NCBI GenBank assembly: GCA_040880805.1
Contig: JBBDHW010000019.1
Coordinates: forward strand, 1 to 45,769
From: Acidimicrobiia bacterium
GTDB taxonomy: Bacteria > Actinomycetota > Acidimicrobiia > IMCC26256 > DASPTH01
Direction: 5' to 3'
Length of the DNA: 45,769 nucleotides
The notes under the pieces are model-generated. The model worked only from the letters and a program-made list of their open reading frames with translations, did no database searches and had not been told where the DNA came from. The position numbers were made by a program, and so were the translations under genes. Of this stretch, positions 7,459 through 24,909 are shown piece by piece (positions within the stretch are counted from its first letter, which is position 1; each line of letters starts with the position of its first letter).

Positions 7459-8037
7459 GTGGTGTTCTTCGTGGTGACGATCGTGGTCGCCGTACTGGTC
7501 GTCGCCGTCACCAAGGGGAGCTTCCAGCGGATGGGTCGCATCCACCTGAATGCGCTCTGGCTGTTGCTCGTCGCTCTGATCATCCAGGTTGCGCTCGAGC
7601 TTGTCGACTTCCCCAAGGAACGGATCGACGACGTCGGGCTCGCGATCCTGCTGATGTCCTACGTGCTCATCTTCGCCTTCTGCTTCCTGAACCGGCGCAG
7701 GAGCGGAATGTTCATCGTGGCGATCGGAGTAGCGCTGAATGTGCTCGCGATCGCGCTCAACGGTGGGATGCCGACAAAGGACGACGTGAAGGAGCGCGAC
7801 GGCGGCGAAGCGCACGTGCCGATCGAGCGCACGGTGAAGCACAAGCCGCGCGAAAGCGACGACAAACTCCCGTTCCTCGGCGATGTGATCACCGCACCCG
7901 GTGTGCCGAACCAGCAGTTCTCGGTGGGTGACATCGTGATCGGGATCGGCGTGATCGACATCTGCTTCGAGGCGAGCCGGCGGCCTCGCCGCCGCGGTGG
8001 CTATCTACCCGAAGCGGACTGGTCGGCTACGACGTGA
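7459..8037 (+). CDS. DUF5317-like membrane protein
   Basis: A 192-residue membrane protein with about five hydrophobic segments. After the third comes LNGGMPTKDD, and near the end PGVPNQQFSVGDIVIGIGV. These features (a conserved NGGMP and a late FSxGD followed by a helix) fit DUF5317, a family without assigned function. The GTG at 7459 lies 6 nt after a TACCGT -10-like box (7447-7452), suggesting leaderless expression. It converges on the HD-GYP-like pair, its 3' end overlapping theirs by 11 bp. Confidence 0.7.
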   Translation: MVFFVVTIVVAVLVVAVTKGSFQRMGRIHLNALWLLLVALIIQVALELVDFPKERIDDVGLAILLMSYVLIFAFCFLNRRRSGMFIVAIGVALNVLAIALNGGMPTKDDVKERDGGEAHVPIERTVKHKPRESDDKLPFLGDVITAPGVPNQQFSVGDIVIGIGVIDICFEASRRPRRRGGYLPEADWSATT

Positions 8038-9211
8038 CCGCGGTGAGCAGACCGGCGCGATCGAGCGCTACCTCGAGCGCGCCCAGCACCCGCACGTCGT
8101 AAACGAAGCCCGGGGCCGAGTAGAGCGCTTCGAGCGCGGCCGGCGAGCAATCGGGCCGCCCCCGCGATAACTCGTCGAACGCGCTCGCGACTTTCAGCAC
8201 CTGTCCCGCCATCACCGACGGACGCGAACCCATCTTGTCTCGGTGCGGCGTCGGTTCGGCCGCGATGATGTCGCCCGCCGGCGCGAGCAGGGGCGTGCTG
8301 CGAAGGATCTCCGCGCCGGCTTGCGCGACAGCAACCAATTCCGGTGCGCGACCGTCCTCCGGCTCGTCGAGACACACCTGACCGAGGTGGTGCAGGAGCG
8401 CAGCGGTCTCGAGTTGTTCGAGCTCGTGACGGGAGAAACCCAGCTCGCTCGCAGTGGCGACCGCGAGCGATGCGACGCGTTCGGCATGCCCCTCGCGCAC
8501 GAGGCCTCCGAGCTCGGGTGCTGCACCGAGCGCACGGATCGTCTGGTCGTACGTGCGGCGGATGACGTTGAGCTGTTCGTAGGAGTACCAAGCTGCCAGC
8601 AACGGGATCGTGAAGACGACCGGACCCCAGAGACCCATGCCACGCTTGCCGTCGATGCCCTGGTCGCTGACCGCCATGAGCATCGCGCTCGTGATCAGCG
8701 CGAGATCGGCGCTGCGACCGTGCATCGTGATACCCACGTGACGCTCACGCACCATGCGAGCGATCTCGGCGATGACGATCGGTGTGATGGACGCGGCCGC
8801 GAGCGCGATCAACTCGCCTGCCCGGTCGGTCGGTGTACCGAGCTCCGCCACGACCGCGTAGTACACGACGACGGTTCCCAGCCCTTCGGCGAGGCGTTCC
8901 ACGAAGAGGGCGAGTCGGCCCTCGACCGTGGTGGGCTCCGGACGAACCAGGAGGCTCGCGAGCAGTGCGATCAGCAGCACGAGCGCGGCGTCTTCGACCG
9001 ACGTTCGCTCGGCGAGCACCACCATGAACGCGAACGAGATCGGGAGCGGAGCCCGGAGGGGCGGTCGGAGTTCGATCAGCTCGCCCGCCGCGATCGCGCC
9101 GCCGATGAGCGCGAGTGCCGCCCACTTGGTGCCCGGGTCGGAGAGTTCCGTTCCCACTGCAACGAGGGCGCTGCCCGCCATGAGGACGGCGACCTGGAGG
9201 AACCGTCTCAC
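8027..9211 (-). CDS. Membrane protein with degenerate HD-GYP domain (second of tandem pair)
   Basis: A 394-residue protein: an N-terminal membrane region of about six to seven helices (residues 5-210), then an HD-type domain (about 215-390). HD-GYP enzymes hydrolyse cyclic di-GMP. Here key residues are altered: the HD dyad reads LLHHLGQ (His274-His275, no Asp), and where HHE...GYP is expected the sequence is AAEPTPHRDKMGSRPSVM. It is therefore probably catalytically dead and may be a nucleotide-binding or partner subunit. The GTG at 9211 overlaps the stop of the preceding paralogue as GTGA. Confidence 0.78.
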   Translation of the reverse strand: MRRFLQVAVLMAGSALVAVGTELSDPGTKWAALALIGGAIAAGELIELRPPLRAPLPISFAFMVVLAERTSVEDAALVLLIALLASLLVRPEPTTVEGRLALFVERLAEGLGTVVVYYAVVAELGTPTDRAGELIALAAASITPIVIAEIARMVRERHVGITMHGRSADLALITSAMLMAVSDQGIDGKRGMGLWGPVVFTIPLLAAWYSYEQLNVIRRTYDQTIRALGAAPELGGLVREGHAERVASLAVATASELGFSRHELEQLETAALLHHLGQVCLDEPEDGRAPELVAVAQAGAEILRSTPLLAPAGDIIAAEPTPHRDKMGSRPSVMAGQVLKVASAFDELSRGRPDCSPAALEALYSAPGFVYDVRVLGALEVALDRAGLLTAVTS

Positions 9212-10587
9212 GTCTTGCCCGCCCGATCCTCGGAGCGATCGGAGTCCCGATCAGTGTCGAGGTCACCCAGGCCCGCCGAGCCGGTCCCAGCCTCGGGAGG
9301 AGCGACCTCCCACTCGTGGGCCTCTTCCTCGTGACCGTCCCCGTACTGCTCGCCCCGGCGCACGATCGCCGCGATGAGGGCGTCGACGCAGCCTTCGTTG
9401 AACTGCGTACCGGAGCCCTTCTTGAGCTCGTCGAATGCAGTCTCCTGGGTGAGCGCTCGGCGGTAGGAACGGGTCGAGGTCATGGCGTCGAAGGCGTCGG
9501 CCACATGGATGATCGCCGGCTCCACCAGCCCGGTACCGCTGACGGCAGCGTTGGCCGCCTCGGTGGTGGTGTCACCGGCGACAGGAGCGAGAAAGTCGAT
9601 GCGGCGGAGCAGTTCGACGGACACGAACTCGTGGCGCTTGACGCGCGCGAACTCGGATTCGGTGAGACGGCCCGGCTTGTTGAGAAGCTGGTTCGGCACG
9701 ATGAGCTTGCCGATGTCGTGCATCAGCGCCGCGTAGCGCAGCCGCTCCATGCGACGTGGGCTGAACCGAAGCTCCTCGCCCACGTACGCGGAGAATGTCG
9801 CAACGCGTTGCGCGTGGCCCGCCGTATACCTGTCCTTCGCCTCGAGCGCCAAGATCAAGGTTTCGATCGTCTGCTCCTGCGCCGCCTTCAACTCGAGATA
9901 GTTCGCGAACGTGCTCCGCGCAATCAAAATCGGAACGACCAGCAACGGCACCACCGCCGCACCAAGTTCGAGGTACACCCATCCGAGGCCGAGTCCGAGG
10001 AGGGCGAATGGATAGGCGCTGACATCAAACGCCGCGATCTGGCGTAGCACTTTCGCGTACGGTTCGTGGCAGCTCAATGCCACCGGAATACTGATTAGGA
10101 GCGCGTTCAGGAAGAGGTACGCCGAGGCGCTGAGCGCTATGGCTGCAAAAACAGCCAGTTGCGAGCTAGGACGGGGCTGATCGGTCATCGCCCAAAACAC
10201 GGCCGCAGCGGCCAGCAGCGAAAGACCATCGGCTGACGCGTTGAACGCGATTTTCTGCCACGCATGCTGGCGGAGCTGCGCGATATCGAGCGCGCCACAG
10301 GTGCCAACAATGATCGGACCCAGGAAGAAGCCATACGCACGGAAGACAACCAGCGACGCAATGAGCACCATGACGTTCCCGCTCATGCCAAAGCCTGCTC
10401 GCGCCGTGACGTCAAAATTCGTGGCGGCGAGCGCAAAGAGTCCCAAGACGACCAGTGCTACAGCGATACGACCTGTAATGGGCTCATGTGACGCGACGGC
10501 TGACAGCACTACGAGCGCGATCGTCAGACCGCACAGCAAGAGCACGGTCCCTTGAATCAGTCGTTCTGTCTTGCGTTCGGTATCCAT
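9208..10587 (-). CDS. Membrane HD-GYP-type phosphohydrolase with altered GYP loop
   Basis: A 459-residue protein: about seven to eight N-terminal membrane helices (residues 10-228), then an HD-GYP-like domain. Seen: His258 (AGHAQRV), His290-Asp291 (LMHDIGK), NKPGRL, His319 (KRHEF) and Asp364 (VADAFDAMTS). The usual HHExxDGxGYP loop is replaced by TTTEAANAAVSGTG at 340-353, losing two metal-ligand histidines and the GYP signature. Activity may be that of a plain HD hydrolase, or absent. The ATG at 10587 lies 48 nt after a 28-codon ORF. A tail of about 40 acidic residues follows the domain. Confidence 0.82.
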   Translation of the reverse strand: MDTERKTERLIQGTVLLLCGLTIALVVLSAVASHEPITGRIAVALVVLGLFALAATNFDVTARAGFGMSGNVMVLIASLVVFRAYGFFLGPIIVGTCGALDIAQLRQHAWQKIAFNASADGLSLLAAAAVFWAMTDQPRPSSQLAVFAAIALSASAYLFLNALLISIPVALSCHEPYAKVLRQIAAFDVSAYPFALLGLGLGWVYLELGAAVVPLLVVPILIARSTFANYLELKAAQEQTIETLILALEAKDRYTAGHAQRVATFSAYVGEELRFSPRRMERLRYAALMHDIGKLIVPNQLLNKPGRLTESEFARVKRHEFVSVELLRRIDFLAPVAGDTTTEAANAAVSGTGLVEPAIIHVADAFDAMTSTRSYRRALTQETAFDELKKGSGTQFNEGCVDALIAAIVRRGEQYGDGHEEEAHEWEVAPPEAGTGSAGLGDLDTDRDSDRSEDRAGKT

Positions 10588-10635
10588 AGCCCTGTTCGGG
10601 GTGGAGATGGCAAGGCCTCAGCCTCTTGAGTGGTG

Positions 10636-10722
10636 CTACTTCCAACGTCCAGCGCCACCGGCGAGCAGCATTGCAACGAGTGCTGACGCGCCGGCTGCAA
10701 CGCGGAATGCGGTCTTCTTCAC
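10636..10722 (-). CDS. 28-aa hydrophobic peptide ahead of the HD-GYP genes
   Basis: GTG 10722 opens a 28-codon frame (KKTAFRVAAGASALVAML...GRWK) behind a strong G-rich Shine-Dalgarno (AGGGGGT). It has a Lys-Lys start and a single hydrophobic helix, and ends in a basic tail, so it could be a small membrane peptide or a leader peptide. It stops 48 nt before the HD-GYP gene in the same direction. The longer in-frame extension to 10884 has no hydrophobic or conserved character and was not used. No homologue is recognised. Confidence 0.5.
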   Translation of the reverse strand: MKKTAFRVAAGASALVAMLLAGGAGRWK

Positions 10723-11038
10723 GAGACCCCCTGAAACCTCGATCTCCCGCCTGGGCAACGCTGTGCGCCCTGGGGACAAGTCGCTTCGCTTCAGGTGTTC
10801 GTGTGTGTGAAGGCCGAGGCCTTGCCGTCTCCACCCGGACGGTCTTGAGTCCTCCCTGCGCGCTTCTCCGCGATCGAACCCCACTCAAATCGGGGGGACG
10901 TTAGTCTCACGCGTCGTCGCTCCCAACGCAAGCCCCATGAGCCACATTTGCAACGCAAGGATCCCCACGGAGGGTGGTTGGGTGGCCGTATCCTGTGCAA
11001 CCATGCGGGGACGGGGCCCCTGGGAGGAACGGAACCAC
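10723..11038. other. Divergent intergenic region with foldable leader
   Basis: These 316 nt separate the 28-aa peptide gene (minus) from the unknown gene (plus). On the minus strand, CCTGAA (10795-10790) and TTCAGG (10735-10730) can pair around 54 nt, and the 3' arm runs directly into the GGGGG Shine-Dalgarno of the peptide. Inside are a GGGC/GCCC pair and, further upstream, the palindrome AAGGCC-TC-GGCCTT (10812-10825). It could be a regulatory leader. It does not fit the c-di-GMP-I riboswitch consensus. The remainder towards 11038 is lower in GC and presumably holds the plus-strand promoter. Confidence 0.4.
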
Positions 11039-11761
11039 ATGCCGAGTGACCGGCCGAACGGCGAATCAGGTTCGGACGAGGCGCAGCCGGAGGAGGTCCT
11101 CGAGCTCCAGGAGCTCGAGGAGGAGCTCTGTCGGCTCGGTGGCGTGCTGGCGGTGCGCGTGGTTGGTGACCGCCTCGGCCGACCGACCGAGGTGCACGTC
11201 CTCTCCGACAACAGCAAGCCTGCGAAGCAGACCGTGCGCGACGTGCGCGCGGTTGCGCAGACCGTGTTCGGGCTCGAACTCGATCATCGCATCGTGTCAG
11301 TGGCGCAGTTCGACGCAAACGACAGCGACGAGCACGCACACGGCGCGCCTGCGCGCACCGAGACCAGAGTGCGTGTTGCAAGTGTCAGGTTCGACAGCGA
11401 GACCGTGCGCGCGACGGCCCAGGTCGTCCTCGCCGACGGCGACCGCGAACAGACCGGCCACGCCGAAGGCTCCGTTGCGGCAATCGGCCGTCCTCAGCTC
11501 GTGGCCGCAGCTACGCTCGACGCGCTGCGTCAACTCGAGCCGGCGGCCGGGGCCGTCCACCTCTCGGCTGCAGACGTCACCCGTGTCGGTAAGTACCGCA
11601 TCGCGTTGGTAACCGTCGTGTGGGTCGAACCGCCGCTCGAGTTAGCGGTGTCGGGTTCGGCAGTTGTGCGCCGTGACCGCGACGACGCCGTGGCGCGGGC
11701 CTTGCTCGATGCTACCAACCGCCGCATCTCCCGTTTGGAATCAGGGCGCGTCGCACGCTGA
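11039..11761 (+). CDS. Uncharacterised protein with two alpha/beta repeat-like halves
   Basis: A 240-residue soluble protein not assigned to a named family. After an acidic N-terminal coiled stretch (residues 17-37, rich in Glu and Leu) comes a segment reading VLAVRVVGDRLGRPTEVHVLSD followed by KQTVRDVRAVAQTVFGLELDHR. The C-terminal half contains GKYRIALVTVVWVEPPLELAVSGSAVV followed by DDAVARALLDATNRR. The pattern strand-strand-helix occurs in both halves. The ATG at 11039 follows GGGAGGA. An earlier in-frame ATG at 11003 is possible. It is divergent from the HD-GYP/peptide operon and may belong with it. Confidence 0.65.
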   Translation: MPSDRPNGESGSDEAQPEEVLELQELEEELCRLGGVLAVRVVGDRLGRPTEVHVLSDNSKPAKQTVRDVRAVAQTVFGLELDHRIVSVAQFDANDSDEHAHGAPARTETRVRVASVRFDSETVRATAQVVLADGDREQTGHAEGSVAAIGRPQLVAAATLDALRQLEPAAGAVHLSAADVTRVGKYRIALVTVVWVEPPLELAVSGSAVVRRDRDDAVARALLDATNRRISRLESGRVAR

Positions 11762-11801
11762 CACGCGCGGGCTCGTCGACTCGCGCGAATCTTCTCGTCC
11801 G

Positions 11802-12881
11802 ATGAAGCTCGTCGCGGTGATGGTTTCCTATCGACTCGGTGGCGCCGACGGCGTTGCCGTCGAAGCGCGCAAATGGGAGTGGGCGCTGCGCGAGCTCGGT
11901 TTCCATATCCGACGGGTCGCAGGTGAGTTCGACGACAGCGTGCGGCCCGACGACGTCTGGCTCCCGTTCCTTGCCATCGATCCGGCCGAGGGGAGCACGC
12001 TGGACCCTAAGGCGCTCGAGGCCGCGCTCGCGGGCGCCGATCTCGTAGTGGTCGAGAACCTGTGCTCACTCCCGATCAATCCCGACGCCTCGACGCTGGC
12101 CGCGGGCGTGCTCGCCGAGCACAACGGCGCGGTGACGTTCCACCACCACGACCTGCCCTGGCAGCGCGCTGGACTCCCGGCACCGGACGGGATCCCACCG
12201 CGCCGACCCAACTCGCTCCACGTGACGGTCAACGATTACTCGCGCGTCCAACTCGAGCACCGAGGCTTCGAAGCGGTAACCATCCGGAACACGTTCGATC
12301 TCGATCCGCCGCGCGGGCATCGTGACGCGACCCGCGAAGCATTCGGATTCGCACGCGACGACCTCGTCTTGCTCCTGCCGGCGCGCGCCATCCCACGTAA
12401 GAACGTGCCGGCTGCAATCGCGTTCGCCACGGAGCTCGCTGCCCTCGAGGCGCGCGCGGTGCGACTCTGGATCACCGGACCCGCCGAAGACGGGTACGAC
12501 CTCGTGCTCGCGCGGATCCTCGCCGACGCGACGATTCCCATCGTGGTCGGCCGCGCCGCGTCGGCATCGGACGCGTACGCCGCGGCTGACCTGGTCGTCT
12601 ACCCGTCGACGTGGGAGGGCTTCGGTAATCCGGTCATCGAGTCGATCGCGCACCGACGACCGATCGCGGTGGGGGGCTATCCGGTGCTCGACGAGCTGCG
12701 CGCGTTCGGCGTCGAGCTCCTGTCCGTCGACGACCCGCAAGGTGCCCGGGAGTGGCTCGTCGATCCTCGACCCGAAGTGCTCGAAGCGAACGTCGACCGT
12801 CTGCGGCCACACTGCTCGATCACCGACCTCCCCGACCGTCTCGCCGCGGCCTTCGCGCGAGCAGGATGGGAAGCGTGGTAG
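11802..12881 (+). CDS. Glycosyltransferase, GT4-like (GT-B fold)
   Basis: A 359-residue enzyme that would transfer a sugar from a nucleotide donor. The N-terminal half begins KLVAVMVSYRLGGADGVAVEARKW, which holds the glycine-rich acceptor-side loop of GT-B enzymes. The C-terminal half has ARAIPRKNVPAAI, a DAYAAADLVVYPSTWEGFGNPVIES motif (donor-binding EX7E-like region) and the usual terminal helix. Donor and acceptor are unknown. The ATG at 11802 is chosen because the fold starts there. The open frame upstream is in the end of the preceding gene. Confidence 0.82.
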   Translation: MKLVAVMVSYRLGGADGVAVEARKWEWALRELGFHIRRVAGEFDDSVRPDDVWLPFLAIDPAEGSTLDPKALEAALAGADLVVVENLCSLPINPDASTLAAGVLAEHNGAVTFHHHDLPWQRAGLPAPDGIPPRRPNSLHVTVNDYSRVQLEHRGFEAVTIRNTFDLDPPRGHRDATREAFGFARDDLVLLLPARAIPRKNVPAAIAFATELAALEARAVRLWITGPAEDGYDLVLARILADATIPIVVGRAASASDAYAAADLVVYPSTWEGFGNPVIESIAHRRPIAVGGYPVLDELRAFGVELLSVDDPQGAREWLVDPRPEVLEANVDRLRPHCSITDLPDRLAAAFARAGWEAW

Positions 12882-24145: not shown

Positions 24146-24160
24146 GACGCGACAACCGAA

Positions 24161-24253
24161 TCCCCGGGGAGCTCGGGACAGCCGGGCTGAGAGGGCGACC
24201 GTCATGCGTCGCCGACCCCTCGAACCTGAACCGGGTAATTCCGGCGGAGGGAC
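24161..24253 (+). ncRNA. TPP riboswitch (THI element)
   Basis: The two conserved TPP-binding blocks are present: CCGGGCTGAGAGGG (24183-24196), then ACCCCTCGAACCTGAACC (24215-24232), GGGTAATTCCGGCGGAGGGA. This matches the consensus GGGCUGAGA ... ACCC-UGAACCUGA ... GGnUAAUnCCnGCGnAGGGA. The TCCC at the 5' end can pair with the terminal GGGA, closing helix P1. The 3' strand of P1 (GGAGGGA) is also the Shine-Dalgarno of the downstream gene, whose ATG is at 24256, so ligand binding should repress translation. Confidence 0.93.
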
Positions 24254-24255
24254 TG

Positions 24256-24909
24256 ATGGGAAGCGTCGCGCTCGTGTTCGCAGGAGGCGATCCACCGCCC
24301 CCGAGCGCCATCGCGGATCTGCCCGCCGCCGATCTCGTGGTGGCGGCCGATTCCGGGCTCCACCACGCGGTCGCGCTCGGGTTCCGCGTCGACCTGGTCG
24401 TCGGCGATCTCGACTCGGTCGACCCGGCTGCGCTCGACGCCGCCGCGGCGGCGGGTACAACGGTCGACGCGCACCCCGCGGCGAAGGACTTCACCGACCT
24501 CGAGCTCGCGTTGCAGGCGGCACGCAACCGCGGATGTTCGCGGGCCGTGGTGATCGGCGGTGCGGGCGGACGTGTCGACCACTTCCTTGCCAACCTGCTC
24601 CTCCTCGCCTCGCCCGAGTTCGTCGGGCTCGACGTGGAGGCGCGGGTGGGAAGCGCCGATGTGTTCGTCGTCCGCGCCGCGCGTGAGGTCCGAGGGCAGC
24701 CGGGTGACTTCTGCTCGCTGCTCGCGCTCGGTGGACCCGCGCGTGGCGTTCACACCGCGGGCCTCCGGTTCCCACTGCGCGGCGAGACACTGCACCCGGG
24801 ATCGACGCGCGGGTTGAGCAACGAGTTGCTCGAACCGGTCGCGCAGGTATCGCTCGACGACGGTGTGCTGCTGGTCGTACTCCCCGACGCACGGAAGGCG
24901 TACTCATGA
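24256..24909 (+). CDS. Thiamine pyrophosphokinase
   Basis: A 217-residue enzyme that converts thiamine plus ATP to thiamine diphosphate. Seen: VFAGGDPPP, AADSGLHHA, VGDLDSVD, KDFTDLELAL and GGAGGRVDHFLANLLLL, the thiamine-binding and catalytic motifs of the family. A C-terminal beta domain carries LLALGGPARGV. It is the first gene after the TPP riboswitch and overlaps the binding-protein gene by ATGA, so kinase and transporter are co-regulated. Confidence 0.93.
   Translation: MGSVALVFAGGDPPPPSAIADLPAADLVVAADSGLHHAVALGFRVDLVVGDLDSVDPAALDAAAAAGTTVDAHPAAKDFTDLELALQAARNRGCSRAVVIGGAGGRVDHFLANLLLLASPEFVGLDVEARVGSADVFVVRAAREVRGQPGDFCSLLALGGPARGVHTAGLRFPLRGETLHPGSTRGLSNELLEPVAQVSLDDGVLLVVLPDARKAYS

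Follow-up and report, generated by a model that had tools for sequence, protein, structure and literature searches.

Candidate leader RNA enclosing a conserved membrane microprotein gene upstream of HD-GYP-type genes in Actinomycetota and Bacillota

A 45,769-nucleotide (nt) stretch of DNA from an Acidimicrobiia bacterium (contig JBBDHW010000019.1; hereafter the window, with "order" and "class" denoting its own order and class) carries a block of five genes, encoding a DUF5317 membrane protein, two membrane HD-GYP-type proteins (HDa and HDb), a 28-residue hydrophobic peptide and a soluble protein termed nov. The open reading frame (ORF) of the peptide is enclosed by a 29-nt inverted repeat, unmentioned in the original prediction for this DNA, and comparison with relatives reveals that the repeat is conserved as a stem, P1, of a leader RNA that contains the microprotein gene and precedes HDa. 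The existence of the microprotein and of the RNA is strongly supported by these sequence comparisons, whereas the mechanism proposed below is inferred. The whole reading, in which an RNA-gated operon would supply a microprotein partner to a sensor HD-GYP protein, is held with evenly balanced confidence. All five ORFs of the original prediction were confirmed at their positions (Table 1). It had described both the peptide and nov as divergent from the HD genes; nov is indeed on the plus strand, but the peptide is encoded on the minus strand, co-directional with HDa and just upstream of it.

The two arms of the repeat are 90% complementary and lie ~200 nt apart. The genome contains a single copy of it, for which reason a mobile element was rejected as its source. 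Each leader was scanned for an ORF-enclosing inverted repeat in comparison with 30 Markov shuffles, and P1 outscored every shuffle in 32 of 33 leaders of the order and in 17/22 and 18/25 leaders from other Actinomycetota. The arm sequences vary by group while their complementarity is kept (GACGGCAAGGCCTCGG in the order, GGGCCAACGCCG in Coriobacteriia, and GGGCCGACA in Bacillota). From 105 leaders with a repeat score of at least 10, two alignments were taken, A6 with 26 leaders of the order and A7 with 32 others. Of the 25 pairs in A6, 22 showed changes in both partners, and the paired fraction of cells was 93.0%, compared with 30-48% in slid controls; in A7 the same was true of 11 of 12 pairs, with 92.8% of cells paired and slid controls at 22-48%. 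The covariation score was matched by none of 500 shuffles in either alignment. Moreover, G·U cells outnumbered A·C cells by 45:15 and 16:5, respectively, an excess expected for an RNA of the coding strand. A DNA operator, mobile-element remnant or terminator, with no regulatory RNA at all, would be in keeping with the U-runs found behind the 3′ arm in several Bacillota, but sits poorly with a single copy, the separation of the arms, the G·U excess and the compensatory changes, and is considered extremely unlikely. Taken together, the covariation identifies the inverted repeat as an RNA stem enclosing the ORF.

The motif AGCGNAGCG was found within 150 nt upstream of the ORF in 135 of 166 distinct leaders (derived from the 177 genes with a motif-form peptide), where the background is 0.012 per 150 nt. 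Searches of Rfam gave no match to the leader in the window, in 23 loci at the gathering score or in 16 loci at E ≤ 5, and known riboswitches, including those for cyclic di-GMP (c-di-GMP), were rejected on this basis. A covariance model built from A7 (R1) was tested on 58 loci, comprising 51 held-out loci with HDa and seven controls; it recovered 45 of the 51 at E ≤ 0.01 and none of the controls, missing the window, L112, L116, L128, L354 and L359. As R1 spans the ORF as well as P1, its matches alone are no evidence of pairing. Matches to R1 were present in 44 of 119 Bacillota genomes at E ≤ 0.001. The best 30 genome-wide matches were all located just downstream of nov, and 29 of them just upstream of HDa, the contig ending first in the remaining case. 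Weaker matches away from the module occurred in G607 (two), G510, G526, G599, G601, G517, G565 and G558.

The enclosed ORF encodes a microprotein with a basic start, one predicted membrane helix, the sequence LAGGA and an aromatic-basic tail, and is mostly 24-30 residues long in its motif form, as in MSKLLKAITVLVTLVLAGGASFRI (D. acididurans, L255), MNKATLIKILLVLMALALAGGANVAWG (T. wiegelii, L283) and MKRIAFLLASLAALVLGGGAFTKM (Coriobacteriaceae EMTCatB1, L223). An ATG start was found in 149 of 177 motif ORFs and a Shine-Dalgarno site matching at 5 or 6 of 6 positions in 139. The ratio of nonsynonymous to synonymous substitution (dN/dS) was 0.19 over 36 independent pairs, with differences at the three codon positions of 93/48/238, a third-position excess. 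These values indicate that the ORF, with its start codon and Shine-Dalgarno site, is under purifying selection and that the conserved gene is apparently translated. By comparison of the leaders, a conserved short ORF with start, stop and Shine-Dalgarno site accordingly lies within a covarying fold that precedes a main ORF. The microprotein has no family in the copies of Pfam and NCBIfam searched. Cysteine, which a lipobox would require, is absent from the six most frequent residues at every aligned position of 157 distinct peptides, which does not fit a lipoprotein. A solitary second copy of the microprotein, MKRIFAMLSTLVAVFLAAGAGARW, was observed at L180 (5563-5634, plus strand), with no detectable P1 or leader motif and no HD gene following on the same strand.

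The association of the microprotein with HD genes was measured by a motif-free criterion (18-40 codons, a 12-residue uncharged hydrophobic stretch, and an ORF end between -200 and +60 of the estimated HDa start), adopted because a narrower regular expression had failed to detect the peptide of the window and those of L032 and L055. Among HD-type ORFs that have a membrane part, score 100 or more and are flanked upstream by 300 nt or more, 187 of 250 were preceded by such an ORF, compared with 71 of 1000 random windows. By tandem position in Actinomycetota and Bacillota, the ORF preceded 187 of 216 first genes and none of 34 second genes; in 177 cases it carried the LAGGA-like motif. For first genes, the motif form was present in 128/138 with both nov and DUF5317 nearby, 43/59 with nov only, 3/10 with DUF5317 only and 3/9 with neither. 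The microprotein is also kept with HDa paralogues that have none of the other genes nearby (L132, L133, and L135) and beside HDb at loci that have lost HDa (L058 and L059), where P1 was undetected.

The block as a whole is widespread. In the order, nov was found in 43 of 58 genomes, and the gene arrangement (DUF5317, HDb, HDa, peptide, nov) is found again in most of those among 40 nov loci that contig ends do not cut; three loci (L046, L053, and L069) have nov and DUF5317 with both HD genes gone, and in these neither the peptide nor an R1 match was found. The block is also present in other orders of the class and other classes of the phylum, with nov in 68 of 346 genomes of the latter. Bearers in the named collection include Coriobacteriia, Desulfosporosinus, Carboxydocella, metagenome-assembled genomes (MAGs) labelled Symbiobacterium, Thermosediminibacter and Thermoanaerobacter wiegelii, and Armatimonadota MAGs have a diverged form. 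Outside the class the order is often nov, peptide, HDa, (HDb), DUF5317, all in one direction, and Bacillota loci mostly have one HD gene, some with a second. Of 197 first-in-tandem HDa genes near nov, 178 have a short hydrophobic upstream ORF, 171 have it in motif form and 138 have DUF5317. The linkage that the original prediction drew from adjacency is thus strongly supported; a lack of co-occurrence in relatives, the outcome it had named against itself, was looked for, and the block was found to recur in the order, class, phylum and Bacillota. By these distributions the co-occurrence exceeds chance and the five-gene grouping is real and ancient.

Table 1. Positions of the module features in the window, and of raiA RNAs at related loci
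Feature	Position	Strand	Remarks
DUF5317 membrane protein	7459-8037	+	PF17248, 97.7 bits (cut-off 25); convergent with HDb, 3′ ends overlapping by 11 nt
HDb, predicted membrane HD pseudoenzyme	8027-9211	-	Borderline HD match; GYP absent, outer Asp lost (alignment A2)
HDa, predicted six-helix S-component-like membrane domain and HD-GYP-type domain without HH and GYP	9208-10587	-	HD_5, E = 9.9e-20; overlaps HDb by 4 nt
Membrane microprotein, 28 residues, VKKTAFRVAAGASALVAMLLAGGAGRWK	10636-10722	-	GTG start; conserved 5′ of HDa; dN/dS 0.19
Leader RNA around the microprotein ORF	10596-10839	-	Minimum free energy z -5.27; covariation
Stem P1, 5′ arm	10811-10839	-	Inverted repeat; position kept in 32/33 loci of the order
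Stem P1, 3′ arm, between microprotein stop and HDa start	10596-10624	-	Inverted repeat; covariation
Leader motif AGCGAAGCG	10782-10790	-	Instance of AGCGNAGCG
nov, soluble protein, ferredoxin-like N domain and LeuA-regulatory-like C domain (model)	10937-11761	+	True start may be further in
raiA RNA near module, L223	907-1131		HPF often directly upstream of nov
raiA RNA near module, L209	1416-1652		HPF often directly upstream of nov
raiA RNA near module, L242	4416-4675		HPF often directly upstream of nov
raiA RNA near module, L271	3902-4138		HPF often directly upstream of nov
raiA RNA near module, further loci (L216, L219, L226, L229, L231, L232, L236)			

The original prediction was right that the HD proteins of the window have lost metal or GYP residues. 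When aligned with PmGH, the HDa proteins of the order have equivalents of H189, H221, D222, K225, H250 and D305 in 35 of 35, keeping five metal ligands, and have lost the HH pair and GYP (GYP in 0/35); HDb lacks most ligands, and in every group GYP is absent and the outer aspartate usually lost. The HDa of the window has the HD pair and the outer H and D ligands that mark the HD superfamily, and lacks the HH pair and GYP. HDa proteins from the other orders of the class (26 sequences) are partly degenerate. Outside the class, all seven PmGH metal ligands are present in 80 of 80 HDa proteins (30/30 from Bacillota and Armatimonadota and 50/50 from other classes of the phylum), with the HH pair in 80/80 and GYP in 30/30 of those from Bacillota and Armatimonadota. 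As the ligands are complete in these, the ancestral module probably had an active phosphodiesterase, and the HDa of the window, which still has H, HD, H and D, may be a one-metal hydrolase. Its C terminus, GSAGLGDL, does not vary among the 19 HDa proteins aligned from the order; a motif search found it in none from the other orders of the class. A further observation on HD-GYP genes comes from Desulfosporosinus fructosivorans (L245), where a c-di-GMP-I-GGC riboswitch (10814-10900, plus strand) lies ahead of another HD-GYP-type ORF (11317-11973).

In the HDa model (pLDDT 84.5), the HD part is most similar to DvhD (9rbz, Z 18.1), followed by PmGH (4mcw, 17.4) and PA4781 (16.8). DvhD is described (PMC13090378) as a c-di-GMP receptor with a non-catalytic HD-GYP domain that binds its ligand without metal. 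The MASE9 domain (PF20972) scores 14.5 bits in the HDa of the window, below the cut-off of 24.3, and the orthologues in L255 (30.3) and L283 (41.2) pass. Residues ~36-210 match, among the listed hits with Z > 10, only ECF S-components, from 14.1 (4hzu_S) to 10.7 (CbiM), and this likeness of the membrane sensor domain hints at a small-molecule ligand. Binding of a nucleotide by the HD domains in place of hydrolysis is thus a possibility for the lineage of the window alone, where the c-di-GMP receptor idea is plausible given the DvhD precedent, and not a general property, given the 80/80 complete ligand sets elsewhere. A wider version, in which the whole module is a non-catalytic receptor complex with degenerate HD domains binding c-di-GMP, DUF5317 and the peptide as membrane partners and the RNA as ordinary expression control, draws on the loss of HH and GYP in the HDa of the order, the greater degeneracy of HDb and the fold match to DvhD. 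Non-hydrolytic binding cannot, however, be the general function of a module whose ligands are otherwise complete, and conservation of the RNA goes beyond that of ordinary leaders; this version appears unlikely.

In the mechanism proposed, an old regulatory unit would consist of nov, an ORF-bearing leader RNA, a membrane microprotein, a MASE9-type HDa, in many cases also a degenerate HDb, and DUF5317. The leader RNA, with P1, its AGCGRAGCGG segment and perhaps a hairpin with a UAGCGG loop, would control paired translation of the microprotein and HDa. The 3′ arm of P1 begins a median of 13 nt past the microprotein stop, close enough for a ribosome that terminates or pauses at the stop to reach it, and translation of the microprotein would therefore be expected to unfold P1 and give ribosomes access to HDa. 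The microprotein would be more than a leader, inserting in the membrane and packing by a small-residue face (S..A.L..AGGA) on the S-component-like domain of HDa. Small accessory subunits pack in a comparable way in cobalt and nickel ECF transporters. Packed in this manner, it would set the c-di-GMP phosphodiesterase activity of HDa in the ancestral form and, in the degenerate form of the window, c-di-GMP binding with HDb as partner.

The occurrence of the microprotein beside lone HDa paralogues and beside HDb in the absence of HDa, the conservative exchange within its helix, and the solitary copy argue for the partner role. The position of the ORF and the distance from its stop to P1 argue for a leader role, and both roles may hold together. 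The ORF might instead be solely a cis-acting leader peptide, in which ribosomes that pause on it, through an exit-tunnel ligand or a scarce tRNA, would switch P1 between open and closed and so determine HDa expression, while the free peptide is inert. Such a peptide would account for an ORF always just upstream of HDa, for the 13-nt distance to the 3′ arm and for the spacer to HDa (estimated median 38 nt), and structured RNAs bearing an upstream ORF (uORF), such as odc1, are known (PMC8632094). It accounts less readily for conservation as a membrane helix with basic ends, exchangeable L/I/V and no run of regulatory codons, for the solitary copy without P1, or for retention of the ORF where P1 was undetected (L058 and L059), and 38-nt spacers leave little room for an attenuator; this explanation is possible but doubtful. 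A precursor of a secreted signal, cut near LAGG|A and sensed by the membrane domain of HDa, would likewise be short and hydrophobic with a basic start and a variable C-terminal tail beyond a constant LAGGA. However, in 154 of 157 distinct peptides the tail is just 3-6 residues, with mostly aromatic and basic ends, and no exporter or protease was a constant neighbor in the scanned loci, making a secreted signal very improbable.

Several observations weigh against the RNA-gated partner model. P1 exceeded its shuffles in just 38 of 85 Bacillota leaders and 3 of 12 from the other orders of the class, and both A6 and A7 are bounded by the detected repeat, which favors P1, so that the shuffle scan of every leader is the unselected test. 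The P2 hairpin, with a second AGCG in its loop, is weak by energy folding (63/135 leaders compared with 115/540 shuffled). In many Bacillota the 3′ arm of P1 precedes, and does not cover, the HDa ribosome-binding site, and gating of HDa is consequently not evident from sequence there. The leader of the window reaches just 9.8 bits under R1 (E 0.23), over the ORF part. Helical membrane folds can give Z values of 13-14 without kinship. The counts over 250 HD ORFs and the 216/34 tandem split are not dereplicated, with some genomes entering twice (e.g. L255/L301), and HDa lacks a recognizable peptide at L105, L113, L119, L122, L126, L127 and L129, all in the class.

The nov protein has no Pfam match and no significant sequence match to PDB chains. 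Its model (pLDDT 81.1) has a ferredoxin-like N domain, and residues 143-271 resemble the regulatory domain of LeuA/citramalate synthase (3f6h; Z 10.1, 119 aligned residues, 3.3 Å, 15% identity). Matches to dsRBD, KH and ribosomal S5-like domains were mixed and considered insufficient to assign nov an RNA-binding role. The LeuA-like C-terminal half was also seen in further actinobacterial proteins that have no module in their vicinity (L197, L198, L199, and L203). The ribosome-hibernation factor HPF, assigned by Pfam, is encoded directly upstream of nov in 33/38 named actinobacterial, 15/38 other-class and 9/38 Bacillota and Armatimonadota loci, and in 0/38 loci of the order and 0/25 of the class. 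In Coriobacteriia and related loci a raiA RNA lies near the nov-peptide-HDa module, mostly ~5 kb upstream of nov (Table 1). It was rejected as a fixed partner, since the only two bearers among 58 genomes of the order lack a nov match; its proximity in Coriobacteriia is therefore read as synteny and the link as suggestive only. Deletion of raiA/ModT is reported to raise c-di-GMP in C. difficile (PMC11706538). Elsewhere in the window, a TPP riboswitch was found at 24155-24269 (plus strand, 58.2 bits).

A bolder extension, advanced with considerable doubt, is that an undescribed ancient RNA class of Actinomycetota, Bacillota and perhaps Armatimonadota folds around its own microprotein gene, and that RNA switch, microprotein and S-component-like HD-GYP sensor form one unit converting an external or metabolic signal into control of c-di-GMP, wired in Coriobacteriia and some Bacillota to the ribosome-hibernation/raiA-RNA locus and offering a route from raiA to c-di-GMP. 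If the proposals hold, the module would offer an experimentally accessible example of joint control of a microprotein and its enzyme by a single RNA, would suggest a fold for the HDa sensor domain and a context for DUF5317 and the nov family, and would place a c-di-GMP enzyme module at the same locus as an RNA reported to act on c-di-GMP. Genes of fewer than 30 codons and overlapping RNA structures escape annotation, and neither the microprotein nor the RNA has an entry in the copies of Pfam, NCBIfam and Rfam searched, though both are conserved between phyla beside a c-di-GMP enzyme. Literature searches returned nothing on DUF5317, nothing joining HD-GYP, a small membrane protein and actinobacteria, and nothing related for MASE9; by titles and abstract starts, none of the papers on HD-GYP and leader peptides, or from further searches, concerned the present locus, and a term search of the main texts of RNA-discovery papers found no uORF ahead of an HD-GYP gene.

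The closest counterparts of the leader are the odc1 motif and other uORF-bearing structured RNAs, which likewise have a conserved short ORF in a covarying leader before a main gene (PMC8632094 and PMC11109978). The odc1 motif is alphaproteobacterial and encodes an 11-residue peptide, whereas the present RNA would span several phyla, with a 24-30-residue membrane microprotein, an HD-GYP target and a stem around the whole ORF. The raiA motif RNA, or ModT (RF03072; PMC11706538), is a distinct RNA found near the module in Coriobacteriia, at a distance of ~5 kb in most such loci. Among proteins, MASE9-HD-GYP proteins (PF20972 and PF13487) include the Bacillota HDa, which is above both cut-offs, whereas that of the window is below the MASE9 cut-off and without HH and GYP. 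DvhD, the best fold match of the HD domain, has also lost metal ligands; it has lost the HD pair and carries dCache and PAS domains, whereas HDa retains that pair and is built with an S-component-like membrane domain. The ECF S-components RibU, ThiT, BioY, NikM and CbiM resemble that domain in a shared helical fold, which shows no function, and in HDa it is joined to a signaling domain. Finally, nov may share the fold of the LeuA/citramalate synthase regulatory domain, which its model resembles, and differs in lacking the synthase domain.

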